The position numbers and the translations under genes are program-made. Under the pieces are notes generated by a model. The model was not told the origin of the DNA and did no database searches. It worked only from the letters and a program-made list of their open reading frames with translations. Positions 7,274-59,004 of a stretch of 64,000 bases of DNA are shown here, piece by piece (positions within the stretch are counted from its first letter, which is position 1; every line of letters starts with the position of its first letter). This stretch comes from Microvirga antarctica (lineage in GTDB: Bacteria > Pseudomonadota > Alphaproteobacteria > Rhizobiales > Beijerinckiaceae), in contig NZ_JAGEMM010000004.1 in NCBI RefSeq assembly GCF_017921815.1, forward strand, positions 248,001 to 312,000, read 5' to 3'.

Positions 7274-9187
7274 TCAGGTGTCCGACACGATCGCGAGAGC
7301 GGCCGCTACCTCGTTAACCTTTGCGGCAAGATCCCCCCGCCCGAAAGGCTTATGGAGAAGCGGGAAGCCATCAGGCATTTTCTCAGGATCGGCATAGCCT
7401 GTGACGAGCAGAATACCCAATCCAGCCCGGTGCTCCCGGGCCTTGAGGGCGAGATCAAAGCCTGTCATTCCCGGCATGGCAAAGTCGGCAATGAGGAGAT
7501 CGATCGGTTGATCCGTCCGAAGAACATCGAGGGCCGTGGCACCGTCTTGCGCTTCGACCACGCGATGGCCCATCTCAGTCAGATAGGCGGCCGTCACAGA
7601 GCGTACTTCGGAATCATCGTCCACCAGGAGAATGCGTACCCTGGTGGCAGGGGCGCCTTCGGCCTGCGTCTCGGCCTGCGGCTCGGCGTCGTCTGCGGCA
7701 GTACGGGCGAGATACACTTCCACCAGCGTGCCCGCGTCAACGGTGCTGGCAATCGTGACTGTTCCGCCGGATTGCTGGGCCAGCCCGTAGACCATCGGCA
7801 ATCCGAGCCCCGTTCCCTTGCCGACTTCCTTTGTGGTGAAGAAGGGCTCCAACACGCGATTGAGAATTTCCGTCGGGATCCCTGACCCCTCGTCGGCCAC
7901 CGCGATCACCACATAATCGCCAGCTCCCAGCTCGGCGATCTGGCCCTCTCCAACGCTGGCATTGCGGGTCGACAACGAGATGAGACCGCTTTCCGGCATG
8001 GCGTCGCGTGCGTTGATGCAGAGGTTGAGAATCGCCAGCTCCAGTTGATCCGGGTCGACCATGGCAGGCCAGAGGCCCTCCGCCAGCGTCCTCTGGATGC
8101 GGATCACCCCCCCGAGGGTGCGCATCAGCAAATCGTTCATGTCGCGAATGACGTCGTTAACGTCCACGGCTCGCAGGGTGAGATCGCGCTGCCGGCTGAA
8201 GCTGAGGAGGCGTTGCGTCAGCGACGCGCCGCGCTCCGCCGCGTAGGTGGCGTTCTGCAGGAGCCGATTGAGCCGGGGATCGTCGGGTGCGCGGCGGGAC
8301 GCAAGGTCAAGGCTGCCGAGCACGGCCATGAGAAGGTTGTTGAAATCATGGGCGATGCCTCCCGCCAAGGTGCCGAGCGCCTGCATCTTGTCCGCCTGCC
8401 GCAAGCGCATTTCCATCATCTTGCGCTCGGTGACATCGCGCTCGATGGTTGCGATCGTCGCCACCGATCCTCCTTCATCGAGGATTGGGATACGATGAAC
8501 GAGGTGCCATTGCGTCGCGCCGTCTGGTGTTGCGAACTCCTCCAGCCGCTCTGCAGGCGCTTGGGCAAGGACAGCCGCATGCTCTGCCTCGCGAATGGCC
8601 GCTGCGCGTTCGGCATCCACAAACTCGCTTTCCTTGCGTCCGATGCAGGATACCGCAGGGAGGCCGAAGTTTTTGGCCTTGCTTGAATTCAAGCGGACGA
8701 ACCGCCCGTCCAGATCCTTGAACGAGATCAGGTCTTCCGTACTCTCCATCAAGCCCCGGAGCAGGGCGCGCTCCATGTCGAGCTCCCGTGCCAGCATGCG
8801 CCGGTCATAGGCCGAGGTCACCATGCTCGACAGGACCGCAGGGTCCCATGGCTTGGGCATATAGGCCATGATGCGGCCCTTGTTCACCGCGCCGATGACG
8901 GCCTTCAGGTCCGCATAGCCGGTCAGAAGGATCGATTCCGCCTCGCTTTTCTCCCGCGCCCGCGCCAGAAACTCATCCCCCGACATCTCGGGCATCCGCT
9001 GATCTGACACGATGACCGCAATATCGGGCTCGGTCTCGAGCATGGCGAGGGCCTCGACCGGCGACGTCGTGGAGAGAACGCGAAAATCGTTCTCGAACAG
9101 ATCCTCGAGCGCAACGAGAATGTCCGGTTCGTCGTCAACGACAAGGATCGTGCCCTGTCCGGATGTGTCTGCCGCAATCGAGGTCAT
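7274..9187 (-). CDS. Hybrid sensor histidine kinase, REC-PAS-HK-REC
   Basis: This is a soluble 637-residue hybrid kinase without a signal or membrane segments. The order is receiver 1 (~13-130, phospho-acceptor D62 in [12 protein letters not shown]112), PAS domain (~140-255), HisKA (H280 in GGIAHDFNN), HATPase_c (N box [25 protein letters not shown]) and a C-terminal receiver (~520-630, D568 in [11 protein letters not shown]). The AHDFNNLL H-box is that of cytoplasmic hybrid kinases of the HWE-unlike 'HDFNN' type. The ATG overlaps the previous gene's stop (ATGA), so it is translationally coupled to the chemosensory operon as its last gene. It is probably an output or modulating kinase of that pathway; no DNA-binding partner regulator is encoded next to it. 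Confidence 0.88.
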
Positions 9188-10929
9188 GTAAGGTTCTGCC
9201 TCGGGATCTTGATGGTAAAGCTGGTGCCGCCCAGCGGCCGGGGATCCACGGCAATCGTGCCCTTGTGAGCCTGCACAACGCTATAGGCGATCGCCAGCCC
9301 AAGTCCAGTTCCCGCGCCGACCGGCTTTGTCGTAAAGAAGGGCTCGAAGATCCGCTCACGCAGTTCGGGGGAAATTCCAGGGCCCGTGTCGCTGATCGTG
9401 ATGGTGTAGGTGGTGTCGTCGCTGGCGGTCTCGATATCGATTGCGCCTGTTCCGACAATCGCATCCGCCGCATTGCCCACGATGTTCATGACAACCTGGT
9501 TGAGGAGAGCGGGTGAGCAATAGAGGTCGACAGCGCCGCCGTAATGGCGCCGGACGTCAATGCGGGTGCCGAGCTTGTGACCGAGCAGCGCCAGCACGGT
9601 GTCAATCGACTCCCGAACGTTGACCGTCTGAAAATCGCCCTCGTCGAGCCGGGAGAAACGTCGCAGGTTCAGCACCAGCTCCTGAATTCGTCCCAGCCCC
9701 AGTTTCATGGCCGCGACCCGCTCGAGCGACTTGCGCACGGATTTCTCGAGCCCGGGATCGTCGGGGAGGTTTTGGGCCACGTCCGTCAACAGGCGCTCGA
9801 CGGTCCCCTGATGGGCGAGAATGAAGGCGAGCGGATTGTTGATCTCATGGGCAATGCCCGCGACCAACTCGCCCAGAGAGGCCATCTTGGCTGCCTGGAC
9901 GAGCTTGGCCTGCGTATCCTTCAGACGCTGGTTGGCCTCTTCCAGTTCGTGATTGGCCTTTTCGAGCGCCCCCGCGAGAGCTGCCCGCGCTTCTGCCGCC
10001 GCCGCCTCGGTGCGCGCGCGCTCGAGGGCAAGGTCGCGCTCCTGGAGTTCGGCCTCAATGCGCCAGTTTTCGTCCTGCAGGAGTTTGCGGCGGACCAGTG
10101 CGCGGATACGGACCCGCATGACGTCGGCATCCGCGGTCGCTGGCACGATGTCGTCAGCCCCCGCAGCGAACGCCCGTGCGAGGACATCCCCACCGTCCTC
10201 GTTTCCCAGACCGACGATATAGAAGGTGGCGACCTCGATCCCTGGCACAGGGGCGACGCCGCGATAGACATTCAGCTTTCGGCAAAGCTCGACGCCGTCG
10301 AAGCCGGAATTGAGGATGTTGACCAGCACGCAGTCGAGCGCTGCACCGTGTTTGCTGACGCGTTCAAGCGCCTCTTCAGGGCTGTCAACGCAGGTGACCG
10401 CGTAACCCTCGCGCGCAAGGACGCCCTCGAGCGAATGTCGCTGGGTTTCATCCTCGTCGACCACAAGGATCCGCGCCCGTCTGAACGTGCTGAAACTGGG
10501 CGCTTCCCGACCTTCTGAAACGACCGCAACCGGCGTCGCGCGGCGCCGCAACAACGCTCTGATGCGAAGAATAATGAGCGCCTGCTCGGCCGATTTCGAC
10601 ACATAGGCGTCGGCGCCGCTCTCGAGCCCCTGGCGTTCGACAGCCCGTTCACGGGCTTCCGTCAGCATGATGACCGGGATGGCGCGCGTGCGCACATTCA
10701 ATCGCATCTGCCGTGAGAGCTCGTCTCCATTCATGCCAGGCAGGTGGAAATCGGCGATGACCAGGTCGGGAAGCTTCTCGTTCAGGCTGTCGAGGGCTGC
10801 CTCGGCCGTGGATTTCCACGTCACATGGAAGCCGTTCGTTTCGAGGACGTAGCGCAGCTGCAGGGCCTGCGTCTCCGAGTCCTCGACCAGCAGGATCCGT
10901 GCGCCTTGATGCGCTGGGCCTGCCGTCAC
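9184..10929 (-). CDS. Hybrid histidine kinase, REC-REC-HK with a pseudo-receiver
   Basis: This is a soluble 581-residue protein. Receiver 1 (~10-130) is canonical (ED at 16-17, D60 in [12 protein letters not shown]112). Receiver 2 (~152-280) keeps the fold ([16 protein letters not shown]) but has N204 where the phospho-aspartate belongs, and the conserved lysine is replaced (DDIVPAT), so it should not be phosphorylated. A coiled coil (~285-345, rich in E, A and R) leads to HisKA (H361 in [10 protein letters not shown]) and HATPase_c ([25 protein letters not shown]). The GTG start overlaps the cheB stop (GTGA) and its stop overlaps the next kinase (ATGA). It could read the phosphorylation of the CheA pathway through receiver 1 and control its own kinase; that is inference. 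Confidence 0.86.
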
Positions 10930-12002
10930 TTTCCGACTCCCTGCACCAGACGCGTGATTCGCGGCGCGATGAGGTCAAGAGGGAGGCTAGCCCGCACGCC
11001 GCCCATGCGCGTGGCTGCGGCCGGCATGCCATAGACAACGGCGGTGCTTTCGTCTTCGGCGATGGTGTAGGCGCCTGCCTGCTTCATCTCCAGCATCCCC
11101 TGCGCGCCGTCCTCTCCCATGCCCGTCAGAAGGACGCCAAGACCCTTCGGCCCTAGCGTCTTCGCGATGGATTGAAACATCAGCGTTGCGGACGGCCGCT
11201 GGCTCGCCAGAGGTGCGGCCGCGCTGATCTTGAGCGTTCCTGTCGGCGAGAGCATCAGGTGCCTGTCGCCGGGCGCGACGTAAATGCGACCGGCGACGGG
11301 AATCTCCTCATCGCGGGCGACACCGACAGACAACGCCATGATTCCATCGAGCCAGGACGCGAACCCTTCCATGAACGGCGCCCCCATGTGCTGGACCAGC
11401 AAAATCGGCAGCGGGAAGTCAGCCGGCAGGGCGCCCAGGACCTTCGCGAGAGCAGGCGGGCCACCTGTCGAGGCTGCAATGCCGAGAAGGGTCGGAGTCT
11501 GCGATTCCACGGGCTCATCCCGCCACATCGGAACGGTCCGGTCGCCGGCCGGCTTCCAAGCGAAGGAGCGCTGTCGAACAACGGTGACCTGACTCATGAT
11601 GTAAAGTTGCGTGCATATCGTGTGGGCGACAGCCTCATAGCCCGCGCTTGTCACCCCGACAGGTTTCTCCACGACGGAGAGAGCGCCGGCGCGAAGCGCG
11701 TTCATGGAGATTTTCAGCGCCGAATCCTCGATGCTTCCGGCGATGACCACGATGGGCGTCGGGCGCTCGGACATGATGCGCCGGGTCGCCTCCAGCCCGT
11801 CCATGCCGGGCAGGCGGATATCCATGGAAATCACGTCCGGCTGAACCCGGCCGATTTCCTGGAGCGCTTCTTCGGCCGAACTGACAGCCGCGGCAACGAT
11901 CAGACGCGGGTCGCGCGCGACAATATGCGCCAGCAGCTGCCGCACCACGAGGGAATCCTCCACGATCATCACGCGGACGGGCGATGGAGAGGGAGAGATC
12001 AT
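10926..12002 (-). CDS. cheB: Chemotaxis-type methylesterase CheB (WspF-like)
   Basis: This is a 358-residue protein with an N-terminal receiver (D61 in ISMDIRLPGMDG, K113) and a C-terminal CheB methylesterase domain. The catalytic triad residues S178 (IAASTGGP), H205 (VQHMG) and D298 (TGMGEDG) are all present. It removes methyl groups from (or deamidates) glutamates of the MCP, opposing CheR, and is activated by phosphotransfer from CheA. The ATG overlaps the cheA stop and its TGA overlaps the next gene, both by four bases. In Wsp systems the homologue WspF sits at the same place, directly after the CheA-receiver hybrid. Confidence 0.93.
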   Translation of the reverse strand: MISPSPSPVRVMIVEDSLVVRQLLAHIVARDPRLIVAAAVSSAEEALQEIGRVQPDVISMDIRLPGMDGLEATRRIMSERPTPIVVIAGSIEDSALKISMNALRAGALSVVEKPVGVTSAGYEAVAHTICTQLYIMSQVTVVRQRSFAWKPAGDRTVPMWRDEPVESQTPTLLGIAASTGGPPALAKVLGALPADFPLPILLVQHMGAPFMEGFASWLDGIMALSVGVARDEEIPVAGRIYVAPGDRHLMLSPTGTLKISAAAPLASQRPSATLMFQSIAKTLGPKGLGVLLTGMGEDGAQGMLEMKQAGAYTIAEDESTAVVYGMPAAATRMGGVRASLPLDLIAPRITRLVQGVGK

Positions 12003-14242
12003 AACAGTTGTCCGATGGTCGCCAGAAGGTCGCGCTGGTCGAATTTCTGTTTCGTGAGATAGGCGCTGGCGCCCAGGTCCAATCCCCGACGAATGTCGGC
12101 AGGGTCGGCGCGGGATGTCATGAGAATCAGCGGCGTGGCGGCCAGGCGTCCATCTGCCTTGATGGCCTGGAGGAGGCCGAACCCGTCCATCCGCGGCATT
12201 TCCACATCCGCGATGACCAGGTCGATGATGGTGTTGCCGGACCGCAGAACATTGAGAGCATCGATGCCGTCCACGCTCAGGAGAACACGATAGCCTTGCG
12301 ATTCAAGAATGCTTTTCTCGAGCGTCCGCGTCGTGATCGAATCGTCCACCACGAGAATCGTCGTCGCTCGGATCTCAGCCGCTTCGCCGTTGTCGAGAAT
12401 GCCCAGTCCGCTCGACGCGACATGGCTCTCCTGCCGCGTCCAATGCTCGACAAGCATTTCCGGGCTCAGCACGAGCGCCGGCACTTCATCCTCGAGCATG
12501 ACCGTTCCTGTCACCATCGCGCTCGTTCCAATCACCGCAACGTCGCTGACCAGCATCGTCCGGACGTCTTGGAAGGAATCCACCGCAAAGGCGCAGAAGC
12601 GAGAGCCGTTATTGACCAGGACAGCTTTCACAGTCCCGTTCTCGATTGGAAGATGTGCACGTGGTGATCCTGTAAGGGCTGCCAGGGCGATGACTGGAAC
12701 CACAACGTCTTGCCCCCCCACCGCGATCCGTGCCGTCGGACGTCCTTCCACACTTTCCAGCTCAGCCGCGCCGATGCGGAGCAGCCGTTCGATCCCGTAA
12801 GTCGGAAATCCGAATGTCCGACCCTCCGTCTCCACGAGGAGAAGCGGCTGACGGGCGGCGTTGAAAGGTACGCTGAGGATCACCTCCGTGCCCCACGGAA
12901 AACGTGGGCGGAGGAGAACCGAGCCATGGAGCTTGCGCACCGCTTCGGCCACGACGGAGAGCCCCATGCCGCGACCGGACAGTCGGTTCACCTCGGTCGC
13001 GGTGGAGAACCCCGGGGCAAAGACCAACGCGAGGAGCTGGTCCATCATGGGTCCACGCTCTCCCGCCTCCCTCTTGGAAAGGAGGCCGCGCTCAATCGCC
13101 ACCTCCTCGATCCGTGCGAGATTGGGGCCGCGCCCATCGTCCCGGATGCTGACCGCAAGGCGACCGCCGCGGGAGGCCAGCTCGAGAGTTATCTCGCCAC
13201 GTTCAGGCTTTCCCTTGCTGGCGCGCTCGGCGGCCGATTCGAGGCCATGGCTGATCGCATTGCGCAGCAGATGCATGATCGGGTCCTTCAGCGCCTGAAG
13301 GACCTGGCGGTCGACCTGGATATCGAGGCCGAGAATGCGCACGTGAACCTCGCGGCCCTCATTACGCGCGATATCCCGGACCATGTGGCCGAAGCTCCCG
13401 AACACCGTGTCGGCAGAGACCAGCGACACCCGGTCGATGTCGTCGCGAACCCGTCGGGCCGCCTGATCGATGGTCCAGGCCGATTTTCGGCGATCGCGGG
13501 CCAGGGCGGAGAGGGTCCGGAACAGGAGTTTCAGATCCTCGTCGAACGCCTGCAGGCGTGATGCCGACGAACCGGCAGCGCGTCGGGTCGAACGCGCGCC
13601 CTCGCTCGTCGCGCCCTTGAGATGGGGTTGAAGCTGGTCCCAGTTGCGGCGAAGCCCCCTGACGTCGAGTTCGATCTGCTGCAGGTCTTCGCCGATCGCC
13701 TCATCCGCCTGAATTTCAGCCAGCAATTGATGCATCGAGCTGGACAATTGCTCCATCTGCTCGGCAGCCACGCGCAAGTAAGCGCCAGCGCCGTGATCCG
13801 TCGGAACTGCGGCTTCGGGCTTGGCGACGGCGATCTCGTCAGGCGCGGCCTTCGGTTCAGGGCGCGGTCGTGGCGGAAGCCCGAGAATCTCCGTGAGTGC
13901 ATCGAGTGCTGCATCGGATGATGTCGTCGCGTTGTCCGCGTCGATTTCGGCGACAAGGTCTTCAATGGTGTCCAGGCTCAGACGCACCGCGGCGATAGCC
14001 TTGTCGTCGAGAGCCTGATCGCCCTCGAGAATTCGCGAGAACAGCGCCTCCAGCTGATGCGCGACCTCTTCGACGCTCGGAAGTTCGACGGCACGCGCGG
14101 CGCCCTTCAGAGAATGGGCGCGCCGAAACACATCGTTCAGATCGATTGTGCCGGAGCTCTCGAGGGCCCGTCGGATGGCGTCGAGATGCTCTCGATGCTC
14201 CACATCGAACGCCGCGAGCAGAAGTTTGCGAATATCCTTCAC
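11999..14242 (-). CDS. cheA: CheA-REC hybrid histidine kinase (WspE-like)
   Basis: This is a 747-residue chemosensory kinase. It has an HPt domain with H43 in RAHSLKGAAR, a proline/alanine-rich linker (~115-150), a dimerisation helix region, HATPase_c with the CheA-type N box (HLLRNAISHGLE), DDGRGPN and the GRGMGLSVV lid, a CheW-like domain (~480-600) and a C-terminal receiver (D679 in IADVEMPRMDG). No separate P2 CheY-binding domain is recognisable, which fits a kinase that phosphorylates its own receiver. CheA fused to a receiver is typical of the Wsp and other non-flagellar chemosensory systems. It overlaps cheB (ATGA); a 29-bp gap separates it from the MCP gene. Confidence 0.93.
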   Translation of the reverse strand: MKDIRKLLLAAFDVEHREHLDAIRRALESSGTIDLNDVFRRAHSLKGAARAVELPSVEEVAHQLEALFSRILEGDQALDDKAIAAVRLSLDTIEDLVAEIDADNATTSSDAALDALTEILGLPPRPRPEPKAAPDEIAVAKPEAAVPTDHGAGAYLRVAAEQMEQLSSSMHQLLAEIQADEAIGEDLQQIELDVRGLRRNWDQLQPHLKGATSEGARSTRRAAGSSASRLQAFDEDLKLLFRTLSALARDRRKSAWTIDQAARRVRDDIDRVSLVSADTVFGSFGHMVRDIARNEGREVHVRILGLDIQVDRQVLQALKDPIMHLLRNAISHGLESAAERASKGKPERGEITLELASRGGRLAVSIRDDGRGPNLARIEEVAIERGLLSKREAGERGPMMDQLLALVFAPGFSTATEVNRLSGRGMGLSVVAEAVRKLHGSVLLRPRFPWGTEVILSVPFNAARQPLLLVETEGRTFGFPTYGIERLLRIGAAELESVEGRPTARIAVGGQDVVVPVIALAALTGSPRAHLPIENGTVKAVLVNNGSRFCAFAVDSFQDVRTMLVSDVAVIGTSAMVTGTVMLEDEVPALVLSPEMLVEHWTRQESHVASSGLGILDNGEAAEIRATTILVVDDSITTRTLEKSILESQGYRVLLSVDGIDALNVLRSGNTIIDLVIADVEMPRMDGFGLLQAIKADGRLAATPLILMTSRADPADIRRGLDLGASAYLTKQKFDQRDLLATIGQLL

Positions 14243-14271
14243 GAGGCTGGGCGCTCCCGATGATCTTCAGG

Positions 14272-15948
14272 TCACAAACGGTAGCGCTCGACGAGCCCCA
14301 CGAGCTGCTGCGACAGGCCGGAAAGATTGGCGGCCGCCATATCCAGCTGCCGCGTTCCCGCGGCGGTCTGCTGGCTCGCCTGCCGGATGTTCTGCAGAGC
14401 GCTCATCACCTGCTCGATCCCGAGCTGCTGCTGGTTGGTCGATGCCACGATCTGCTGGAACGTCTGCACGCTCTCCTGAACGCGGCTCGAAATCTCCGTG
14501 ATGGTGGATTGCGTGGTATCGGTGCGCTCCTTTCCGGCGGTCACACGCTTGACCGCTTCCTCGGTGAGCATGACCGAAGAATTGATCCCGCGCTGGATAT
14601 CGCCGAGGATCGATCGAACTTGCGAAGTCGCGTCCTTCGCCTGGTCGGCCAGCACCTTCATCTCCGATGCCACGACGGCAAAGCTGCGACCGTTCTCGCC
14701 CGCCGCGGCGGCCTCGATGGCAGCATTCAGCGCCAGAAGGTGAGTCCGCTCCGAGATGTCGTTGACGGTGGAGATGATCTCTCCCACGGCCTGAGTTTTC
14801 TCGCTGAGCGCAACAATGTTTTCCGCCACAGCCTCTGCCTGGTCGCGAATGGCATCCATGGCCCGTGCGGTCTCGTCCACGGCCTGGAGGCCAGCCACGC
14901 TGGTCTGCGCGGTGGCCTGTGCGGCCGCGATCACTTCCTGCGCCCGCTTGCCGATCTGCGCCCCCGCGTGGGTGATCTCGTCAACGGTAGCGGCGGTCTC
15001 CTGCACGGCTGCCAGTTGTTCTTCGACACTGGCGGCCTGTTCCTGGGTCGATGCCCGGATTTCAGCCGCAGCAGCGTTGAGATTCTCGGTCGCTTCCCGA
15101 CTTTGCCTGGCCAGTTGTCGAAGTCCCTCGACCATTCCATTGAGGGTGCCGCCGAGCCGTCCGAGTTCATCGGTTCCGGCCGTTGCGGTCTGACCGGCAA
15201 GATCGCCGCGGCCAACACGCTCCACAAACTCCATGAAGGCATTGAGCGGATTGGCGATGGATGCCCGCAGCACGTACGTGATCAGAACGCTGAGAAGCGC
15301 GACGACAGCGAGCGCCAGAATGATCGACGTTCTGCTCTGCTCATAGACCTCGCCAACCCGCCGCTGCCCGATGGTGATGGCCTCGTTCAGAACCTTGCTG
15401 ATGTCCTCAAGCGATTTGCCCCAGGCGTCGCGGCTCACCCTCAGCGCGTTCTCCGTGCTGACGATCGCCGAAAGGTCGTTGGCCTGGATCGCACTGAATT
15501 GCTGTTCTGAGCCCACGCGGATCTGGCGCAACTGGCCGCTGGAGGTGTTCAGCAATTCGCTGATTCGCCGCCAGGCGTCTGCGCGCTGGCTCGTCGCGGA
15601 CGTGGAGATGTAACTATTCGTGGTCACGATGGCCTGGGCCAGCGTCGATTCCGCGGCTGCGGCACGCCGTCCCCAATCGGCAACCAGGTCTTCGTATGGA
15701 CCGGGTTGCTGGCCGAGAGAGCGCAGGAAATAGCGGCTGAGCGCCTCCTCGCGCGCGGCGCGCATGTCATTCTGGCTGCGCCCGATCGCGTCGAGCTGGC
15801 GTTGCAAAGCCAGATCACGATTGACGATGGTTTCCGTCGTCCTCGTCACGTCGTCAAGCTGGTTGATGGTGTAGGCGCCCAATCCCACCATCAGCGCAAC
15901 AATGAACGCGAAGCCGAGAAGGATGCGATTCGCAATCGAGATTGTCAC
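14272..15948 (-). CDS. Methyl-accepting chemotaxis protein (WspA-like)
   Basis: This is the 558-residue transmembrane receptor of the cluster. TM1 lies at ~8-28, then a helical periplasmic region (~30-208) of the four-helix-bundle type, TM2 at ~210-232 and a HAMP domain (~233-285). The long cytoplasmic coiled coil has its hairpin tip at [22 protein letters not shown]. Glutamine/glutamate-rich stretches flanking the tip look like methylation helices. The C-terminus (LVERYRL) has no CheR-binding pentapeptide. It is the only MCP in the window and lies between cheW and cheA, so it is the sensory input of this array. Its stimulus cannot be read from the sequence; Wsp receptors respond to surface contact. 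Confidence 0.92.
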
Positions 15949-15949
15949 G

Positions 15950-16546
15950 TTACACTCCAGAAGCCGGGAAGGGGAAAAGGAAGGGGCGGATCAGTTGATC
16001 GACATCGAGCAAGGAGAGAACGCGCGCGCCACGGGCGGACCCGGACGCCATCTCCGCATATCCGATAACAGCCTCGGTCCGAAAGGCGTGCTGGTTCTCG
16101 GAGGAGATTGGCGTCGCGGGGAACACGCCTTCTGCGTGCTCGACCCGTAGGGCGACCCGCGGCTGCTCGCGCCGCAGCAGGACAAGGTGATGAAACTCGG
16201 TCTCAGCGGGCGCCGGGATGCCAAGTGCAGCTCCGAGGTCGATGACGCTGACAAGATAACCTCGCCGACCAATAATTCCGACGAGGGCAGACGGACCATC
16301 AGGCACCGGGACGCAGGGGCGCACGGGAAGGACCTCGACGATATCCGCCAGAGCAATCCCATAGCGCTCGCGCCCGGCAGTGCAGACCAGAACCGGCGCT
16401 GCCGGCCGCTCCGGCTCCTTTGCGGAGGATTGTCGCGAGGCGAGATCGAGCGTTCGCTCATCGAGAAGAAGGCGCGCGCTCTCCTCGGCCGAATATGCGC
16501 CCGCCCGGTTGATCTGTCGCAGTCTGCCGCGCAGTGACAATGCCAT
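15950..16546 (-). CDS. cheW: CheW-domain adaptor protein
   Basis: The protein has about 198 residues: an N-terminal ~50-residue tail rich in charged residues, then a CheW domain ([23 protein letters not shown], with VIDLGAALG and a C-terminal [10 protein letters not shown]). CheW couples receptors to CheA in the signalling array. The ATG at 16546 is preceded by AGGAGG with a seven-base spacer that overlaps the end of cheR, so it is preferred to the TTG two codons earlier. It is one of two CheW genes flanking cheR here, as in the Wsp operon (wspB and wspD). Confidence 0.88.
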
Positions 16547-16548
16547 GA

Positions 16549-17994
16549 TCAACCCTCCTGCCGCGGGGTGGTCAGGCGCTTCAGCCGCGCGCGCACCATC
16601 GTTCTGAAATCCTTGGCGGTGAGGCCGTCGCCCTCCTCGAGCGGACAGTCATCCGGCAGATCTGCTGCAAGCCTCAGGGCGTTGGCAACCGATCGTTGGC
16701 CAGCAGCCGCGTGGTGGCGCGAAATCAGATGAAGACCGAGATGATAATGCGCCATGACAAATCTCTTATCGAGATAGATGCTGTCGCGGAAGGCCTTCTC
16801 TGCCTCCTGATCGCGCCCGAGGGTCTGGGCGATAAGGCCTTGAAAGAAGTGGAATATGGGGTCGATCGGCTGATCTCTCAGGCCACGCTTGCACAGCGCG
16901 TCGGCCTCCTCGAGATGTCCCGCATCGGCGAGCCGCCTGACATCGCGCAGCAGCACCGCTGCCTGCGAAACCGGCATGATTTCATCGATGGGGAGCGCAG
17001 GCAGGACCTTTGGAGACGACCATTCCGTCCGCTCTGAGGCAGGTGCGGGGTCCGTTGGAATTGCCGGCAGCCAGGGCACCGGAGCAAACGGTTCCTCGGC
17101 GACCGCGGGCGCGGCTTGCGAGCCATCGCCCGGCAAATGGCGATAGGCGGTCGTTCCGGGCAGGTTCAACGCCTGCATCATCGCCGCAAAAGCCGGGTTT
17201 GGCTCGGCGTGACCCAGCAGCATCCACCCCCCTTCCAAAAGCGTATCGCGCAGGGCTTCCACAACGCGATGGACCGTCTCCGGATGAAAGTAGATGAGGA
17301 CGTTTCGGCAGAGAATCAGGTCGAATTCCGTGAACTGGAGCGGCGACGTTCCGTCCAGAAGACTGAGCAGGTTGTGGCGTTCAAAACCCACGAGGGATCG
17401 AAATTCCGGCCGAAGCTGCCATTGGGCGCGCTCGGCGGCTGGGACGAAATACGCGGATTTCTCGGCTGGGGTCAGCGAGCGAAGCGCCCATTGCCCGAAG
17501 CGCGCGCGGCGGGCCGTCTCCAGAAAGGTCTCGTTGATGTCGGTGCCGATGATCCGCACCCGCCAGTTCGCGAGGTCCTCGCCGAGAAGTTCGGTGAGCA
17601 GAATGGCAATCGAATAGGCTTCCGCACCGGTGGCGCATCCTGCGCTCCAGATGCGAAGCCGCTTCTCGCCGCGTTTGCGCGCGATGATCTCCGGCAAAAT
17701 CACCTCGCGGAGGGCGGCGAACTGCTCCACGTAACGAAAGAAAAACGTCTCCCCGATCGTGATCTCGGCTTCAAGGCGTGCCCATTCGGCGTCGCCGAAG
17801 CCGGGGTCTTCGAGCAGCGCGAGATAGGCAGAACAATCGGGCTTTCCAGTTTCACGCAGGCGCTTGCGAACCCGCTCCCACAGCAGGTCGTCCTTGTCCT
17901 GATAGTAGAAGTGGCCAGTGCGCTCGATCACAAGGGATTTCAGCCGCGCGAAGGCGGGATCGAGGGCGTAGCCCTGAGTGAGTGGCGCTGGCAT
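16549..17994 (-). CDS. cheR: CheR-type methyltransferase with C-terminal TPR region (WspC-like)
   Basis: The 481-residue protein has a CheR N-domain, then a SAM-dependent methyltransferase domain with ETFFFR (~82-87), the SAM-binding WSAGCATGAE (~116-125), GTDINETFL and LILCRNVLIYF. It then has a proline/alanine-rich linker and a C-terminal tetratricopeptide region (~370-450) with helix pairs such as ADAGHLEEADALCKRGL. It methylates MCP glutamates. A CheR with TPRs and no flagellar context is a hallmark of WspC. The ATG overlaps the stop of the upstream cheW (TGATG), which decides the start; a longer frame upstream lies within cheW. Confidence 0.91.
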   Translation of the reverse strand: MPAPLTQGYALDPAFARLKSLVIERTGHFYYQDKDDLLWERVRKRLRETGKPDCSAYLALLEDPGFGDAEWARLEAEITIGETFFFRYVEQFAALREVILPEIIARKRGEKRLRIWSAGCATGAEAYSIAILLTELLGEDLANWRVRIIGTDINETFLETARRARFGQWALRSLTPAEKSAYFVPAAERAQWQLRPEFRSLVGFERHNLLSLLDGTSPLQFTEFDLILCRNVLIYFHPETVHRVVEALRDTLLEGGWMLLGHAEPNPAFAAMMQALNLPGTTAYRHLPGDGSQAAPAVAEEPFAPVPWLPAIPTDPAPASERTEWSSPKVLPALPIDEIMPVSQAAVLLRDVRRLADAGHLEEADALCKRGLRDQPIDPIFHFFQGLIAQTLGRDQEAEKAFRDSIYLDKRFVMAHYHLGLHLISRHHAAAGQRSVANALRLAADLPDDCPLEEGDGLTAKDFRTMVRARLKRLTTPRQEG

Positions 17995-18500
17995 CAAGCG
18001 CTCACCGTCCACTCGCTGAGGCGACTTTGGGCCGTCTGCGTTAACGTCGACAGGGCCTGCTGTTCCTCGGCGAAGAGAACGCGATCGACGGACAGGAGAT
18101 GGACAAGTTGCCCGTCGATGTCGATCTCGCCCTGGACGCATCCATTGAGCGTTCCTGCCTCTCGAACGGGAGAGACAAGGCGTCCGTCGACAAGAGCGAG
18201 GTCAACGACCCGGTCGACCAAAAACGCCATGGGACGTCCCTCGGTCACTCCATCCACCAGGATCAGGTGACGGTACAATCCGTTGTCAGTTCCGGCTTTC
18301 TGGCTCTCCAGGCCGAACAGCACATCCATTCGGACAACCGAAACAGCGGTTCCGCCAAGATTGAAGAAGCCCGCGAGTGGTTTCGGCAGGGACGGCGGAC
18401 GCCACAAGTGCGGCAAAGGGAGAAGCTCACGCACGTCATTGCGCCGAAGGGCACATCGCGTCCCGCCCACGTCGAACAGAAGAATGTGGAGGCTCGCCAT
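17994..18500 (-). CDS. cheW: CheW-domain adaptor protein, first gene of the chemosensory operon
   Basis: This is a 168-residue CheW-like protein (HILLFDVGGTRCALRRNDVREL, FFNLGGTAVSVVRMDVLFGL, MAFLVDRVVD) that joins the receptor to the kinase. The ATG at 18500 is chosen over a TTG eleven codons upstream, because the extra residues do not match the CheW start and a purine-rich GGCGGA/AGCGAG stretch lies upstream. It starts 118 bp after the end of bcsK on the same strand, with a candidate promoter between. Every later gene in the cluster follows within 30 bp or overlaps. Confidence 0.86.
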   Translation of the reverse strand: MASLHILLFDVGGTRCALRRNDVRELLPLPHLWRPPSLPKPLAGFFNLGGTAVSVVRMDVLFGLESQKAGTDNGLYRHLILVDGVTEGRPMAFLVDRVVDLALVDGRLVSPVREAGTLNGCVQGEIDIDGQLVHLLSVDRVLFAEEQQALSTLTQTAQSRLSEWTVSA

Positions 18501-18556
18501 CTCGCTACAATCCGCCAAATTCAGGGAAAACAAGGCTGCGGGCCGGCGCAGTGCTG

Positions 18557-18605: not shown

Positions 18606-18618
18606 TCGGGATTGTCCG

Positions 18619-20904
18619 CTACTGGCGGATGTTCTGCGTGCGCTCGAGGACGGCGTTCAGCCCGACATTCGCCTCGTCCGAGTAACCCGTTCGCTGGACG
18701 GAGCGGAAAATGCGTTCCGCATCGTTGTAACGTCCGAGCTTGAAGTACGACCAGCCTCGCAGCAGCATCAAATCTGTCTGCTCAGGCACGACCCGGCTCC
18801 GTTCGCCCAGCGCGAGGATGACTTCCATCCAGCGTCCTTCGCGATAAGCCCCCAGCGCGCGCTGGGACAGGATGCTGGCATTCAGCTCGCGTCGACGATC
18901 TGCGGATTGAGGGGCTTCGGCCGCCGCGACGGCTGCCTCGGCCGTCAGATCCTTGCGCAGATACGCCAAAGTTTTGCCGTAGGCAGCCTCTTCCCGCGTC
19001 TGTCCCTCGCCGCGCTTGACGGCCTCATCGAAGGCGCTGGCTGCCTCCATCGGGCGGTTAAGCTCCATGAGACACCAGCCCAGCGTCAGTGCGGCGCCGG
19101 GCGCGAGGCTGGTAGGATTGCGCGTGACCGTACAGCCACGGTTGGCACGGCCTGTGCCGCGGGCCTCAGCCGCACGCGCCGCGGGCCGCCTTGCTGCAGG
19201 AAGGGCCTCGGCGGGTGCCGTTTGCTCGAACCTGGCCGGTTCTTCCATCCGGCGAAGCGCTGCCGACGGGCGCAGAGGTTCGACAGGCGGCGGAGCGTCG
19301 GCCTGCGCCATCCGGGTGGCCTCGGCCCGACGCGCGGCGCTGTCAGGCTGGTCCTGTGGAAACGCCGTGGCAGGCGCCGTCGTGGTCATCGGGGCAGGGA
19401 GGCCCGATGACGGCATCGCGATTGGAGACGGGGCGGTCATCGCAGCAGTGGTCTCGGTCGTCGCATCCGGACCCGCGGACCGGCGGCCCGACGCGGGGGC
19501 GGTGACACGGCCGTCCGCGAGATCGGCAATGCGCGGCGAGCGCGGCCGCCATTTGGTCACGATCGCGTTGAATCCCGCGCGATCGTTGAGCCGCTGGGTC
19601 GAAAGCGCCGCGCCATAAGCGGACGGCTCGTCCTCCGCATTCCAGGCGAGTGCTTTCAGGAACCAATCACGGGCCGACCGGAACTGGCCAGTATTGTAGG
19701 AGTACCAGCCGAGCGCCTGGGCGCCGTTGACGAAGCGCTGGGCCGTCACCGCCTGAATGACGCGCGTGATGACCCGGGGATCGAGGCGCGGCGGAGGATC
19801 CTGGCTCAGCAACGCGGTCGCCACGTCCAGGTAGACCTGCATGTTCTCCTTGGCCTTGTCGCGCCAATCGAACGCGAACGCTTCGGCCTCGACGAACCGG
19901 TTAAGGTTGCGGAGCGTGAGGGCATATCCCTCGGCGGCCTTCGGCCCCGCATTCCGATCCAGCGCGAGCTTGAACCACTCCAGCGCCTTCTCGGGCGATT
20001 TGTGATGATAATTGTAATAGCCGAGGATCAGCGCGTTGCCCGAATCCGCGGGATTTTCAGCAAGGCGCTCTACGATAGCGAGGTCGTCGGGCGCGGCGAT
20101 GGTTTTGCCGTCGACTGAGGCGCGCTCAACCCGTCGGCGTGCGAGCTCGTCGCGAATGGGACTGAAGTCATCAGGTGTATCGCCCGTCCGCCGCTCGAAT
20201 TTCAGCAGTTCGGCGATCTGAGCGTCCGGTAAGAGAGCGACCGCCTTCTGAAGCGTGCCGAGACGCTCCGTCGGGTTGGCGCAATTGGTCAGCGTGTAAG
20301 TGTAGACATCGCGCGCGCGCGGGATCTGGTTCGTCTTGGCGAAGGCTTCCGCCACGCGCCAGAGCACATCCACATTCGCGCAGGTGAGGAGGGTCGGCGT
20401 TTCTGTGGCGATGGCCAGGACGGTGCGCCACTGGCTGCTGTCCGAGGCATTCGTCAGGCGGCGGCGCGCTTCTGACTGGTCGAGCGCCACGAGCAGTTCG
20501 GCGGGCGGCTTCCAGTTGGGATCGGCGGCCTGACGCTCAGCGATAGCCGCGCGGATTTCCGCCACCTTGCCGTCCGCATAAAGCTGCCAGAGGGCATCGA
20601 CCGCGGGATCTGTCTGGGGCAATGCGCTGCCGGGGGATTGCGACAGATCGGTCGGCGGTGTCCATTCGGGATACAGCGCGCGCAGGCGCGCCACCTCCGC
20701 ATCCACACGCCGCGTGTCGCCCTGAGACGCGAAGTAGCGCAACGCCGATTCGTCAACGGGCGGACGGGTCGGTGCAGGTTGCAATCCGGCAGGCGCCCCG
20801 GCTCCCTGCATCTGCCGCGGCACGGTCTCGCCGGATTGCTGAGCGATGGCCGCAAAGCCCAGGCTCACAATCGCAATCGCTATGGCACCGCGCGCTACAG
20901 ACAT
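18619..20904 (-). CDS. bcsK: Cellulose-operon TPR protein, BcsK-like
   Basis: This is a 761-residue exported protein with an N-terminal signal (ARGAIAIAIVSLGFAAIAQ). Repeated tetratricopeptide helices (for example ~255-310 and ~620-740, the latter with LLRGWSYFKLGRYNDAERIF) flank a long Pro/Ala/Thr-rich linker (~455-590). It lacks the C-terminal outer-membrane barrel of BcsC (BcsC is ~1150 residues). The type III cellulose operons of rhizobia (bcsN, bcsA, bcsB, bcsZ, bcsK) carry such a TPR protein instead, which may scaffold peptidoglycan or export partners. The ATG overlaps the bcsZ stop by ten bases. The BcsK name rests on context and architecture rather than on residue motifs. Confidence 0.75.
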   Translation of the reverse strand: MSVARGAIAIAIVSLGFAAIAQQSGETVPRQMQGAGAPAGLQPAPTRPPVDESALRYFASQGDTRRVDAEVARLRALYPEWTPPTDLSQSPGSALPQTDPAVDALWQLYADGKVAEIRAAIAERQAADPNWKPPAELLVALDQSEARRRLTNASDSSQWRTVLAIATETPTLLTCANVDVLWRVAEAFAKTNQIPRARDVYTYTLTNCANPTERLGTLQKAVALLPDAQIAELLKFERRTGDTPDDFSPIRDELARRRVERASVDGKTIAAPDDLAIVERLAENPADSGNALILGYYNYHHKSPEKALEWFKLALDRNAGPKAAEGYALTLRNLNRFVEAEAFAFDWRDKAKENMQVYLDVATALLSQDPPPRLDPRVITRVIQAVTAQRFVNGAQALGWYSYNTGQFRSARDWFLKALAWNAEDEPSAYGAALSTQRLNDRAGFNAIVTKWRPRSPRIADLADGRVTAPASGRRSAGPDATTETTAAMTAPSPIAMPSSGLPAPMTTTAPATAFPQDQPDSAARRAEATRMAQADAPPPVEPLRPSAALRRMEEPARFEQTAPAEALPAARRPAARAAEARGTGRANRGCTVTRNPTSLAPGAALTLGWCLMELNRPMEAASAFDEAVKRGEGQTREEAAYGKTLAYLRKDLTAEAAVAAAEAPQSADRRRELNASILSQRALGAYREGRWMEVILALGERSRVVPEQTDLMLLRGWSYFKLGRYNDAERIFRSVQRTGYSDEANVGLNAVLERTQNIRQ

Positions 20905-21989
20905 TTCGGATATTTTTCACCCACTAGCGACATCGACAGCAGGTACAGCGTCGACGAATAATACAGTTTCGGCTCAAACGTCTTCAACTCAGCCGGGATC
21001 GGCGTGCCATCGAGCGCGCACGACAAGGCCGCCGACATGGCGGTGTAGCCCTGATCCGTCAGGCGCTCGCGCACCTGGCCCGTCAGGACATTGACGATGG
21101 CAACTCCCTCGCTGCCCGCGCGCCAACGCTGATCGACGGTTTTCAACCAATCCATGTCGGTCATCCCCGCCCGCAATAAGTAAAGAGGTATCCTTAACGA
21201 GTTGTAACCAAACTCCGGCGGAAAGCCGTCTGCCGTGCGTGGCTGCAGGCGCGCCCGAATGGAAATCCAGTCCGCGGGGAGACGGGTCTTGCCGGTCGTG
21301 GCCTGCTGCAGCAGCACGATTCCCTGGCGCCACACGGCGCTCCAATCGAATTCCGGCGCAAGGCTCGCGAGGATGGGGAATGCCTCGAAGACCCAGTAGG
21401 ACAGATTGACAACCGGTCCGTCGGGACGGTCAGCGGCTGCAAAACCCTTGGCGCCCGGAAGCAGAAACAGGGACTCGCCCTCGCGCCCGATGCCGGTCTT
21501 TCCGATGGCCATCGCGAGGCGTTGCGCCGCCTTCACATATCGGTCGTCCTTCCAGTGAATGCCCGCGCGCCCGAGGGCGTAAGCAATCAGGATGTCACCA
21601 TCGGTCGCGTTGTTGCGGTCGGTCACATGCGGGGTGGCGGCCGGGTCCCACTTCCAGACGGCGAGGCCGTCGTCGCGGATGAGGAATTCGGTGAGCGTGA
21701 AGTTCCAGATCTTCTCGAACGTTCCGCGATCTTCCGCAGCCAGCGCCAGGATCAATCCGTAGCCCTGCCCTTCGCTGTGACTGATGTCGCCATTCGCATT
21801 GTCGACGACACGGCCATCCGGCTTCACAAAACGGGAGCGATAGGCCTCCCAGTCCGACGCTGTCACGGTTCCGGCGATCTTCACGGGTTCGACCGGGGCG
21901 CTGACAGCCGGCTGCAGGGGAGCAAGGGCCGCGACGACGACACAGAAAAGCCAGCACAGCCGTGTGATTCGCGATCCACTGTCATTCAT
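20895..21989 (-). CDS. bcsZ: Periplasmic endoglucanase BcsZ, glycoside hydrolase family 8
   Basis: This is a 364-residue GH8 beta-1,4-glucanase that trims cellulose during synthesis. The N-terminus is a signal peptide (LCWLFCVVVAALAPLQPAVSA). The segment DISHSEGQGYGLILA carries the conserved catalytic acid (glutamate in SEGQGYG), and NNATDGDILIAYALGRA gives the second conserved acidic motif of the family. The start ATG overlaps the bcsB stop (ATGA) and its stop lies inside bcsK, so it is tightly coupled in the operon. Length and motifs match BcsZ/CelC proteins. Confidence 0.92.
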   Translation of the reverse strand: MNDSGSRITRLCWLFCVVVAALAPLQPAVSAPVEPVKIAGTVTASDWEAYRSRFVKPDGRVVDNANGDISHSEGQGYGLILALAAEDRGTFEKIWNFTLTEFLIRDDGLAVWKWDPAATPHVTDRNNATDGDILIAYALGRAGIHWKDDRYVKAAQRLAMAIGKTGIGREGESLFLLPGAKGFAAADRPDGPVVNLSYWVFEAFPILASLAPEFDWSAVWRQGIVLLQQATTGKTRLPADWISIRARLQPRTADGFPPEFGYNSLRIPLYLLRAGMTDMDWLKTVDQRWRAGSEGVAIVNVLTGQVRERLTDQGYTAMSAALSCALDGTPIPAELKTFEPKLYYSSTLYLLSMSLVGEKYPKCL

Positions 21990-24658
21990 TTGCCGCGTCC
22001 AAGGTGGTTCAACATCAGGTAGGTCGCGCCACCGAGCAGAATGCAGCAGACAACGAGCAGGAGGGCATATTGCAGGATGTTGACGGACATCCAGTTGGCC
22101 GCGACCAGACGCAGATTCAGCAGCGAGAATGGCTGCGTCTGCACGAAACTGAAGTCGCGGATCGGCTCGATCTCAAGCTTGCTCTCGGTGGGATCGAGCG
22201 AGGCAACGCGTCCGGAGACCTGCGACCAGGTCATCGGATTGGTCAGGCGCACCATCTCGTCCGCGAGTGCCTCCGCGTTGCGCGCGGTCACAAGAGTCCA
22301 GGTGGCATTACCTTCCGCGCGGCTCTGGGCGAGCAGGAGGCTTGTGCGCTGCGGCGGTTCGTAGGCCTGGCTGACGCGCTCATCGAAGGAGAGCGATGCC
22401 AGCGAGAGGTTGAACGTGCGCTCGACCCATTCCTTGAAGGTGTCGATGCTCTGTTGGATGAAGCCGCGCCGCTGCAGGTTCTCGGACCATCGGCGGCGGA
22501 TGTCGTCCGTCGAACCGCTGTCGACCACCGCAGGCTGCGCTTTCGGGGGTACGTAATCGGCCCGGTTTGCATTGGTTCCCGCAACGGGTTTAGGGGGCTG
22601 GTTAGAGGCCACGCCGGGCGGATAGGCCCAGTTCGAAGACGGCATGGATTGCCAGACCGTCTTCAGGTTCTCGCTGATGTTGACGCGGCCCAGCATGCCA
22701 GCCGGAAGTTGATCGATCGAACCCACGACGACGACCGATGAGTCTCCCCCCGACACGGCATTGAGAAACTGGGCTCGCACCGGCTCTCCGGAATCGCGGG
22801 CCATGCGGGCGAGAAGCGTGCCCGATGCGGAATAGCTCAGCGCATCCGGGCGGGCCAGAACGATCGAGGCTGGCTGCGCCCCGAAGGGGAACCCAGCTGT
22901 GCTGATGGGCGCGAGGTCGGGCACACGTCCGATGCGGCCGAAGTTGGGAATCAAGAGGGACGTCGTGTCGAACAGGACGAAGCGGTTGGCCTCCGACAAG
23001 GTCTCGCCAGGTGCGCAGCGTTCATCCGCTGCGGTCAAAAGAATGGTCTCGAATGCGAGGTGGTTGATGCCCGGCTTGAAGTTTCGCATCGGGATACGCA
23101 CGGGATGCCGGCGGAAGACGTCGCCGCGTGATGTGATCGTCATGGTGGCGCTGATGCGCCCGTTCACATAGAGATCGATGCGGCTCCCCGGAAGCACCGC
23201 CGCCGTGTGTGCGGCATCGAGAAACAGGGTCGCCTCGCCATAGTCGCTGGCATAAAAATCGGCCGGAAGGTTGACAGCGAACCGGGCTCGCAGACGTCGA
23301 CCGGAGAATTCCTGCGTGGGAATCCCGACATCCGAGAATGCGATCGGCCTTCCGCCCAACAATGTCTGAACCTCTGGCCACAGCCAGCTTGCCGTATCGA
23401 CGGTGTTGCGCGGACGGCCCTCGCGATTGAGGGCAGGCGCGCCGACGATGTTGATGGCGTTGTCGAGATCGTTCCAACTGGGTCCCGAGACGACAAGCGT
23501 CGCAGAGCCCGAACTGGCCTCGTGCATGACGATCGCCAGAGCCTGAGCGTTCGCGGCCTCGGGGGGCGCTGCCATGACGCCGCGCAGTTCGCTGGCGATG
23601 CCCATCACCACTTTGATGGTTCCCGCAGGGCTTGCGCCCGGGTCTGATTCGACCACGCGAATGACAGGGTGAGCATAGCGACCCCGCAGGGCCACCATCT
23701 GGGCAAGGCGCAAGAGACGATCGCGGATCTCCGGACGGTAGATGCGGGGCGCCACGATCCGTATGGTGGTGATCCCCTGGGTGTCCATTCCGACCGCGGG
23801 AAGGTCCTCCAGCGAGCGGATCGGGCGCGGGGCTCCGTCAGAAAAGATCAGGCTCGTCGAGGCGGAATCCAGCTGCGTCCACAATTCGTAGGTCGCGCGA
23901 ATCGTGCAGTCCGTTCGATGCCTCTGCGTTGCCTCGATCCGGATGATATTCTGGCCCTGTCGCAGGAGCCCCGACCGCATGGGCACGACAGTTCTGAAGA
24001 TATTGGCCGAGGATGCGATCGTGATGTCGTTGATCACCTCGCCATTGATGATGACGCGCAGCCTCGAGGCCTCGGGCATGACCACGACGGCGTTCTGGTA
24101 GCCGACCGCCAGACCCACCACATTCACTGCTTCATCTTGAGTCAGGCTGAAGGCCCAGGAACGGGCGTCGCTTTCGCCCTCAAGCCGGATATCGTCGAAC
24201 GGCAGGATGGGCTTCTCGCTGCGGCCGCCCGTGCGTGCGGCGTTGGCGGGCCCCGAAGACGGCGCCAGCGGCGTGACATTGCGCACGGGTGTGGCAACAC
24301 CCGGCTGGGGGCGAACAGCAGTCGCCGGAGGGCGCGCGCCTTGGGGCGCCATGTCAAACGGCGCAGCTCTGGCCGCGGGCGCGTCGGCCGGGCGCACTGA
24401 GGGTTGGGGCAGCGATTGAACCCCGTTTGTGGGATTGGGCCGCGGCGCTGCCGGCCGCTGTGGGACGGGCGCGACGCCCTGCATGTCGAAGGGAACCGGC
24501 GTGCCGATCGCCGGTCCCGGTGAGGGTGGCGATGGCGCAGGAGGGGGAGCCGGCCGTTCGCTGCCGGGCGACATGCTGAAAGGAGCTGGCTGCGCCGATA
24601 GCGGATGGGCGCCAATCGCCTGAAGCGCGAGCAAGAACGGGATGAGATAAGCGCGCAT
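21986..24658 (-). CDS. bcsB: Cellulose synthase periplasmic subunit BcsB
   Basis: The ~890-residue protein is BcsB, which guides the nascent glucan through the periplasm and is essential for BcsA activity. It has a signal peptide, an unusually long proline-rich linker (~25-165 with repeats of PFDM), two carbohydrate-binding/flavodoxin-like modules (HRTDCTIRATYELWTQLD; ADERCAPGETLSEANRFVLFDT) and a single C-terminal membrane anchor (LLLVVCCILLGGATYLML). The ATG at 24658 has AGGTG seven bases upstream; a GTG three codons earlier, directly after the bcsA stop, is the alternative. The PFDM repeats in the linker are unusual and look like a tether. Confidence 0.92.
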   Translation of the reverse strand: MRAYLIPFLLALQAIGAHPLSAQPAPFSMSPGSERPAPPPAPSPPSPGPAIGTPVPFDMQGVAPVPQRPAAPRPNPTNGVQSLPQPSVRPADAPAARAAPFDMAPQGARPPATAVRPQPGVATPVRNVTPLAPSSGPANAARTGGRSEKPILPFDDIRLEGESDARSWAFSLTQDEAVNVVGLAVGYQNAVVVMPEASRLRVIINGEVINDITIASSANIFRTVVPMRSGLLRQGQNIIRIEATQRHRTDCTIRATYELWTQLDSASTSLIFSDGAPRPIRSLEDLPAVGMDTQGITTIRIVAPRIYRPEIRDRLLRLAQMVALRGRYAHPVIRVVESDPGASPAGTIKVVMGIASELRGVMAAPPEAANAQALAIVMHEASSGSATLVVSGPSWNDLDNAINIVGAPALNREGRPRNTVDTASWLWPEVQTLLGGRPIAFSDVGIPTQEFSGRRLRARFAVNLPADFYASDYGEATLFLDAAHTAAVLPGSRIDLYVNGRISATMTITSRGDVFRRHPVRIPMRNFKPGINHLAFETILLTAADERCAPGETLSEANRFVLFDTTSLLIPNFGRIGRVPDLAPISTAGFPFGAQPASIVLARPDALSYSASGTLLARMARDSGEPVRAQFLNAVSGGDSSVVVVGSIDQLPAGMLGRVNISENLKTVWQSMPSSNWAYPPGVASNQPPKPVAGTNANRADYVPPKAQPAVVDSGSTDDIRRRWSENLQRRGFIQQSIDTFKEWVERTFNLSLASLSFDERVSQAYEPPQRTSLLLAQSRAEGNATWTLVTARNAEALADEMVRLTNPMTWSQVSGRVASLDPTESKLEIEPIRDFSFVQTQPFSLLNLRLVAANWMSVNILQYALLLVVCCILLGGATYLMLNHLGRGK

Positions 24659-24667
24659 GCCCGACAC

Positions 24668-26884: not shown

Positions 26885-27034
26885 CAGTCCTCGTTCTCTG
26901 TTCAGATCCGCTACGGCATCTGCCACGCATAAGCTACGGGATACGAACGGTCTATGGCTATCTGTGCCGTCCCGGCGTCACAGTGTGATCGTCGTAAACG
27001 ACCTTTCTCTAAGGGCGTCTCTCCGAGATCCGCG

Positions 27035-27979: not shown

Positions 27980-28189
27980 GAACTCTATGATCTGGCGTCC
28001 CGCCGAGACGGAGAGAGCGAGGAAGACGAAAGCGGCAAGATGGCTCCGCACCCGTGGGCACCAACACCCGTGGGCAAGAAGAACAACGCATTCAGACATG
28101 CTCAATCATAGTTAACGAACGATGAAAATGGAGCTCGAAAGGGCATATTTTCCAGTATGGCCCTCGCTTTCCTCGGCGCCAAGAGTGGG

Positions 28190-46520: not shown

Positions 46521-46529
46521 GGACAAATT

Positions 46530-47153: not shown

Positions 47154-48877
<1,724 letters not shown>

Positions 48878-48878
48878 C

Positions 48879-50645: not shown

Positions 50646-50656
50646 AAGCAGCATCC

Positions 50657-58999: not shown

Positions 59000-59004
59000 C
59001 ACAC

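Follow-up and report, generated by a model that had tools for sequence, protein, structure and literature searches.

Which process does a chemosensory array serve when the genes following its cheB encode two hybrid histidine kinases? The question is raised by a 64,000-nucleotide stretch of the Microvirga antarctica genome (contig NZ_JAGEMM010000004.1, positions 248,001 to 312,000; the window, in whose positions all coordinates are given, residue numbers being those of its proteins). Eight minus-strand genes occupy 18500 to 7274 there in the order cheW1, cheR-TPR, cheW2, a methyl-accepting chemotaxis protein (MCP) gene, cheA-REC, cheB, and the hybrid kinase genes HK1 and HK2. An original prediction took this block for a Wsp-like pathway in which two kinases replace WspR and phosphate branches from CheA. 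Its gene set, positions, domains and four-base HK1/HK2 overlap were borne out by open reading frames (ORFs) and Pfam, and the description of a non-flagellar chemosensory operon with hybrid-kinase output also stood, but kinship with Wsp did not. The system appears instead to be a Che3-like chemosensory operon of the alternative-cellular-function (ACF) kind, resembling the cyst-control system of Rhodospirillum centenum more than Wsp, and we think it probable, with some reserve, that such a system uses a serial route from CheA through HK1 to HK2.

The block is the only chemosensory system found in the genome, the three CheW-domain proteins detected by genome search all being encoded in it. No flagellar-switch or pilus-retraction gene was found: neither FliG, for which control matches were obtained in four genomes, nor PilT gave a match in the genome search. 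Pfam reported no receiver, EAL, CheY-like or flagellar domain in 42 further ORFs of the window, which include a few mutually overlapping in different frames and do not cover all small ORFs, and the 19 GGDEF domains of the genome all lie outside the window, in agreement with the original prediction that it holds no GGDEF/EAL, cheY or flagellar gene. A WspR-type cyclase encoded elsewhere was also considered. No clear WspR ortholog was found in the genome, where the WspR query matches a GGDEF part or a REC part only; one 726-residue frame holds both REC and GGDEF matches. Among the 80 best of 304 candidate relatives in a scan of named genomes, no WspR match reached the GGDEF part, and a GGDEF gene as conserved neighbour was dropped; one does lie directly upstream of cheW1 in G343 (L152).

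We placed the array by a tree of 40 CheA kinase-CheW cores, including 18 block members, 5 Wsp rows, 8 flagellar-labelled (F) rows and 6 ungrouped rows; the labelling of rows as F or Wsp is our own, and R. centenum CheA3 is absent, the Azospirillaceae being represented by Azospirillum and Indioceanicola. The 18 block CheAs form one clade (support 100/99) that joins the Che3-like CheAs of Azospirillum and Indioceanicola (100/99), and the five Wsp CheAs fall together in a clade of their own (100/100). A joint clade of block and Wsp CheAs was rejected by the approximately unbiased (AU) test (p = 0.0006), as was one of block and F rows (p = 0.00026). The eight F rows lie on one side of a branch (99/95) only when ungrouped rows are not counted, and the two A. 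brasilense F-labelled rows stay apart from the other six. ChpA was trimmed to its last 900 residues for the tree, in which two long branches (Deinococcus and ChpA) meet. A flagellar class for CheA, which the original prediction had named among the outcomes that would contradict it, is rejected by the AU test. Wsp membership is rejected by the tree, the AU test and receiver identities: the first receiver of HK1 (REC1) shares 55% identity with its counterpart in the Indioceanicola CheS3-like protein, 31% with WspR and 27% with WspH, and the block ends in neither of the latter two regulators. Compared with Tar of E. coli, each arm of the 40H-type MCP hairpin has an insert of 14 residues, and these are common to WspA and to the MCPs of Azospirillum and Indioceanicola. 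The MCP gene is fourth in the block, whereas the wspA-wspF synteny that defines Wsp places it first (PMC8552884). By the AU test and our own F labels, rather than by published class hidden Markov models, CheA lies outside the flagellar classes, and the block combines CheR-TPR with multidomain response regulators, as described for ACF systems (PMC3447774).

The likeness to Che3 extends to the first output protein. HK1 (9184..10929) is a REC-REC-HisKA-HATPase kinase encoded directly after cheB. Its CheS3-type REC1 (10561..10896) contains Asp60 (codon 10750-10752, checked), the predicted acceptor of CheA phosphate; its second receiver (REC2; 10060..10485, borders approximate) has Asn204 at the acceptor position (codon 10318-10320, checked), and the kinase core (9187..9969) contains His361 (codon 9847-9849). 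The R. centenum Che3 system likewise comprises a CheA-REC hybrid, two CheW, CheR, CheB, one MCP and a REC-REC kinase, CheS3, whose REC1 is reported to receive CheA3 phosphate and whose REC2 is described as lacking an acceptor (PMC3868531). In Indioceanicola, a member of the Azospirillaceae, the gene order is identical to that of the window through the cheS3-like gene: cheW, cheR-TPR, cheW, MCP, cheA-REC, cheB and then a REC-REC-PAS-HWE kinase. The REC1 Asp of this kinase is residue 54, REC2 has Ala at 192, and the CheA REC Asp is residue 660; the R. centenum counterparts are CheS3 D54 and A191 and CheA3 D663, and R. centenum belongs to the Azospirillum clade (PMC3868531). The two systems part at the kinase, since CheS3 has a PAS domain and an HWE kinase whereas HK1 has HisKA and no PAS, and again at the next gene, R. 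centenum having a stand-alone CheY3 where the block, which contains no CheY, has HK2. HK1 keeps a CheS3-kind input on a different, HisKA kinase.

HK2 (7274..9187) is a REC-PAS-HisKA-HATPase-REC protein whose N-terminal receiver (8804..9148) is the predicted partner of HK1, on the basis of module co-occurrence in distant genomes. The kinase closest to the HK1 core is an RsbU_N-HisKA protein of G306 (53% identical to that core) with an HK2 homologue (44%) about 4 kb away; also close is a REC-HK kinase of G439, encoded beside an HK2 homologue. Three genomes that belong to other proteobacterial classes (G686, G697 and G515) have HK1-type kinases next to HK2-type receivers, which are fused there to GGDEF-EAL or to an HD-GYP-like HD domain. 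With G415 included, all 6 distant genomes, each counted once, have an HK2-type receiver scoring 70 bits or more near the HK1-type kinase, compared with 1 of 20 control kinases from other genomes (L216, 72 bits; Fisher p = 3e-5). The controls came from the window's order and three of the six test genomes from other classes; test stretches measured 9 to 20 kb and control stretches about 10 kb, and every receiver counted lies at most about 4.5 kb from its kinase. Around HK2-like kinases with no HK1 neighbour seen, none of 13 loci (L184-L186 and L188-L197, nine of them covered to about 1.5 kb on the flanks and four to 6 kb; L187, which is cut, was left out) had an HK2-type receiver of at least 60 bits, and in two of them (L194 and L196) a receiver of another type is nearby. 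CheA was not seen in the stretches of G306, G439, G686, G697 and G515 that hold the HK1-type kinase and HK2-type receiver. The G306 kinases sit with genes for a protoglobin-STAS protein and a SpoIIE-type phosphatase, a Gram-negative stressosome context (PMC9237108); this pair differs from the window's in lacking the REC-REC module, and its input would be the stressosome rather than MCP and CheA. The putative kinase-receiver unit appears elsewhere with RsbU_N (stressosome), hemerythrin, REC or PAS inputs, and its receiver appears fused to HD or GGDEF-EAL.

Because HK2-type receivers co-occur with HK1-type kinases, we propose that the three kinases act one after another. The membrane MCP and two CheW proteins would control CheA. 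CheR and CheB would adapt the MCP-CheA array. Phosphorylated CheA would lose phosphate to its own C-terminal REC, which would act as a sink, and would signal by phosphorylating Asp60 of HK1 REC1, a route put forward for R. centenum CheA3 and CheS3. Phosphorylation of REC1 would alter HK1 kinase activity, and HK1 would phosphorylate the N-terminal REC of HK2, setting the HK2 kinase; we infer this step from module co-occurrence rather than from biochemistry. From the HK2 kinase, phosphate may then pass to the C-terminal REC of the same protein or to a regulator whose gene lies elsewhere. Three histidine kinases would thereby stand in series, one tier more than in R. centenum, whose CheS3 has the single-domain CheY3 as its target (PMC3868531). 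We suggest, more tentatively, that the three kinases are wired serially through their receivers and that HK1 is a chimera joining a chemosensory input to an interchangeable two-tier kinase-receiver output unit.

Several observations weigh against this reading. Every phosphotransfer step in the block is one that we infer; homology, the operon, conserved residues and the absence of motility markers are what we observe. The Che3 comparison itself used the Indioceanicola plasmid in place of R. centenum sequences. In R. centenum, CheA3 D663A labels CheS3 REC1 in vitro but wild-type CheA3~P is reported not to, a failure ascribed by the authors to competition from CheA3's own receiver; the genetics are consistent with phosphorylation of REC1 by CheA3 lowering CheS3-CheY3 and permitting cyst formation (PMC3868531). 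The 70-bit cut-off was set after the test scores had been seen, and G697 scores 73 bits against 72 for the control L216. Other outputs follow related cores: the plasmid cluster of Azospirillum (A. ramasamyi and A. lipoferum 4B) shares the order cheW-cheR-cheW-MCP-cheA-cheB, with CheA 39-40% identical, but continues with a 255-residue receiver protein, annotated as a transcription factor and with one REC only reported by Pfam, and an HK-REC protein. In G157, one REC-PAS-HK-REC protein alone follows cheB, and the first receiver of this protein shares 42% identity with REC1. G415 has an HK1-HK2 pair (47% and 32%) ahead of che genes that are ordered differently, and its CheA falls with those of G157 and Sinorhizobium outside the block clade. 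Cores of this kind thus have varying output modules, and the HK1-HK2 pair is not restricted to a single CheA lineage. The idea that REC2 is universally a dead receiver was dropped: its acceptor is Asn in 26 of 29 members of the first alignment (Microvirga), but across 85 members it is Asp in 48, mostly Methylobacterium, against Asn in 30, Gly in 4 and Ser, Thr and Ala in 1 each. Finally, M. brassicacearum, which has the block (L049), is reported to move by means of a polar flagellum (PMC6780248), which speaks against taking the absence of motility markers as a property of the system.

Of the alternatives, the branched output of the original prediction survives best. Here CheA would directly phosphorylate the receivers of HK1 and HK2, which would act as two parallel kinases. 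All the receivers are encoded in one operon, and the acceptors of HK1 REC1 and of both HK2 receivers are kept in 81 to 85 of 85 members (HK1 Asp60 and HK2 Asp62 in 85, as are His361 of HK1 and His280 of HK2; HK2 Asp568 in 81, the other 4 being gaps). Moreover, the genome search found only two PF01627 Hpt proteins, of which CheA is one, and the G157 protein described above directly follows cheB without an HK1. However, HK1 REC1 is of CheS3 type and the N-terminal receiver of HK2 is of another type, and HK2-type receivers lie beside HK1-type kinases in the five genomes noted above where no CheA was seen. We therefore regard the branched form as unlikely, retaining from it the plausible passage of phosphate from CheA to receivers, for which the serial form is perhaps the better one. 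A reverse or phosphatase-type flow, in which HK1 and HK2 would be independent and the CheA Hpt mainly a hub or sink for the C-terminal receiver of HK2, is a good deal less probable. The terminal REC of hybrid kinases commonly communicates with an Hpt, HK2 does end in a REC, and CheA holds one of the two Hpt domains just mentioned; yet neither kinase has a periplasmic or membrane sensor domain in the Pfam scan, and HK1 begins with a CheS3-type receiver. In R. centenum, moreover, phosphate is reported not to have passed from CheS3 to the CheA3 REC (PMC3868531). A true Wsp pathway (H-type) that moved into the alphaproteobacteria with its operon permuted has in its favour the gene content, the same except for the output, the 40H-type MCP in common with WspA and the fact that Burkholderia WspH is likewise a REC kinase, but it is very improbable given the rejected joint CheA clade, the low REC1 identities to WspH and WspR, the genome's want of a clear WspR ortholog and the grouping with Wsp of WspR-containing Wsp-type clusters from other alphaproteobacteria.

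Those clusters, of WspA, E, F and R type (50-63% identical to Cupriavidus, with CheR), lie on two alphaproteobacterial plasmids, of Novosphingobium sp. KACC 22771 and Hyphomicrobiales bacterium UR115 (L160 3178-11409 and L162 3117-11467, respectively), and their CheAs group with Wsp; Wsp has been stated to be exclusive to beta- and gammaproteobacteria (PMC8552884). The Burkholderia WspH system resembles the block in that its output is a receiver-kinase hybrid in place of the diguanylate cyclase WspR (PMC8552884). It differs, in B. stagnalis (L131), in that its CheA is in the Wsp clade, its MCP gene is ahead of the other core genes, and WspH is a single-REC kinase encoded upstream, with no second kinase seen there. 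Two further plasmid loci were noted. On a Niveispirillum plasmid (L155 4791-9414), a REC-REC kinase with a CheS3-type REC1 (52-54%) and another kinase type adjoins a protein of Hpt-REC-REC-GGDEF architecture; the stretch gave no CheA match. On Sinorhizobium meliloti pSymA (L163 3578-10409), cheR-cheW-MCP-cheA-REC-cheB lies beside Flp/Tad pilus genes; no output kinase directly follows cheB, and its CheA groups with that of G157.

The block for which we propose the serial route is patchy in distribution and rigid internally. Counting the window's own genome, 28 of 37 same-genus genomes carry HK1 at nearly full length, as does 1 of 24 from other families of the order; at E 1e-60 HK1 has a match in 8 of 385 evenly sampled alphaproteobacterial genomes. 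Genes of the che type adjoin that match in five of the eight (G000, G343, G099, G394 and G415), and CheA was not seen in the stretches fetched around the other three (G235, G306 and G439). Where the block occurs, the kinases are constant rather than sporadic neighbours, as the original prediction required: HK1-HK2 directly follows cheB in 28/28 fetched relatives (27 same-genus, 1 other) and 80/80 of the best named loci, many Microvirga being the same genomes in both sets. All eight genes stand in the same order in 64 of these 80 loci, the remaining 16 ending at the locus border, and because this order recurs so often the block is far beyond chance. Besides Microvirga, the named loci span Methylobacterium, Methylorubrum, Roseomonas, Pseudoroseomonas, Acidisoma, Alsobacter, Chthonobacter and some metagenome-assembled genomes. 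Methylorubrum thiocyanatum (L122) is among the species that carry the block. A further copy lies on a 195-kb plasmid of Pseudoroseomonas cervicalis (L133 4373-15604), a possible route for the patchy spread.

Kinases as chemosensory outputs are already known: R. centenum CheS3 (PMC3868531) and Burkholderia WspH (PMC8552884) are hybrid kinases in print, and a kinase module is present in about 40% of the response regulators that belong to cheR-TPR clusters (PMC3447774). What appears to be new here is the eight-gene block, its second kinase HK2 and the serial pairing, of which no description was found in the titles and abstract beginnings of the top literature matches. R. centenum offers the only demonstration that we have met of CheA signaling into another histidine kinase, and the block, strictly conserved in Methylobacterium, Methylorubrum and Microvirga, would be a version of it with three kinases. 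As the sole chemosensory system found in a genome with no FliG or PilT match, it makes the sensing and control functions of its array directly addressable. It also opens the question of whether kinase input and output modules are exchanged between chemosensory systems and stressosomes.

The remaining genes of the block have the following features, all on the minus strand. The cheW1 gene (17994..18500; Pfam CheW 6e-17) has an ATG at 18500 within a longer TTG ORF reaching 18533, and cheR-TPR (16549..17994; CheR 2.1e-45, TPR_16 6e-4) has its likely start at 17994, where the codon was read, within a longer ORF to 18141; both were found in 28/28 fetched relatives. The second CheW gene (15950..16552; CheW 1.1e-19) has a tblastn match in 27/28, L040 being the exception. 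The MCP (14272..15948) has two membrane segments, identified by eye, followed in Pfam by HAMP and the MCPsignal hairpin. CheA-REC (11999..14242) comprises Hpt (His43), HATPase, CheW and REC (Asp679), with no P2 domain reported by Pfam; both residues are kept in 29/29 members of the first alignment, and among the 85 members Asp679 is kept in all and His43 in 83, the other 2 being gaps. CheB (10926..12002) consists of REC and methylesterase domains (CheB_methylest 2.2e-55), with Ser178, His205 and Asp298 in 85/85. Four-base ORF overlaps occur at cheR/cheW2 (16549-16552), cheA/cheB (11999-12002), cheB/HK1 (10926-10929) and HK1/HK2 (9184-9187), as in a tight operon. No promoter-like site was found in 18300-18800.

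Directly upstream of the block, on the same strand, lies a cellulose gene set that the original prediction had overlooked: a bcsC-like TPR gene, bcsZ (GH8), bcsB and bcsA (PilZ) at 18619..26926, assigned by Pfam, and bcsN at 27035..28105 (CBP_BcsN 2.8e-61). The bcsC-like gene adjoins cheW1 in 24 of the 27 same-genus relatives fetched. A cellulose link is plausible because cyclic di-GMP-type enzymes occur near HK1-type kinases in three genomes and BcsA carries PilZ, and in Microvirga cellulose or another envelope polysaccharide is the most likely regulated process, as a weakly supported candidate. Against it, a terminator-like hairpin lies between bcsC and cheW1, and no bcsC-like gene adjoins the block in the non-Microvirga named loci, about 2 kb upstream being covered per complete locus. 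Co-occurrence is weak as well: across 37 genomes, block and bcsA are both present in 27, the block only in 1, bcsA only in 6 and neither in 3 (p = 0.04), and the sole bcsA match of G023 is a 49% paralogue. With the bcsC-like neighbour confined to Microvirga and co-occurrence this weak, cellulose as a general target was dropped. A second cellulose-type locus in the window (57912-61767) encodes a BcsQ/ParA-like ATPase together with a BcsA paralogue that has a PilZ domain and shares 50% identity with the first BcsA. Downstream of the block lies a peptide ABC transporter, and urease genes (ureD, fused gamma-beta, alpha, F, G and J) are found at 45636-51226, downstream of a branched-chain-type ABC transporter.

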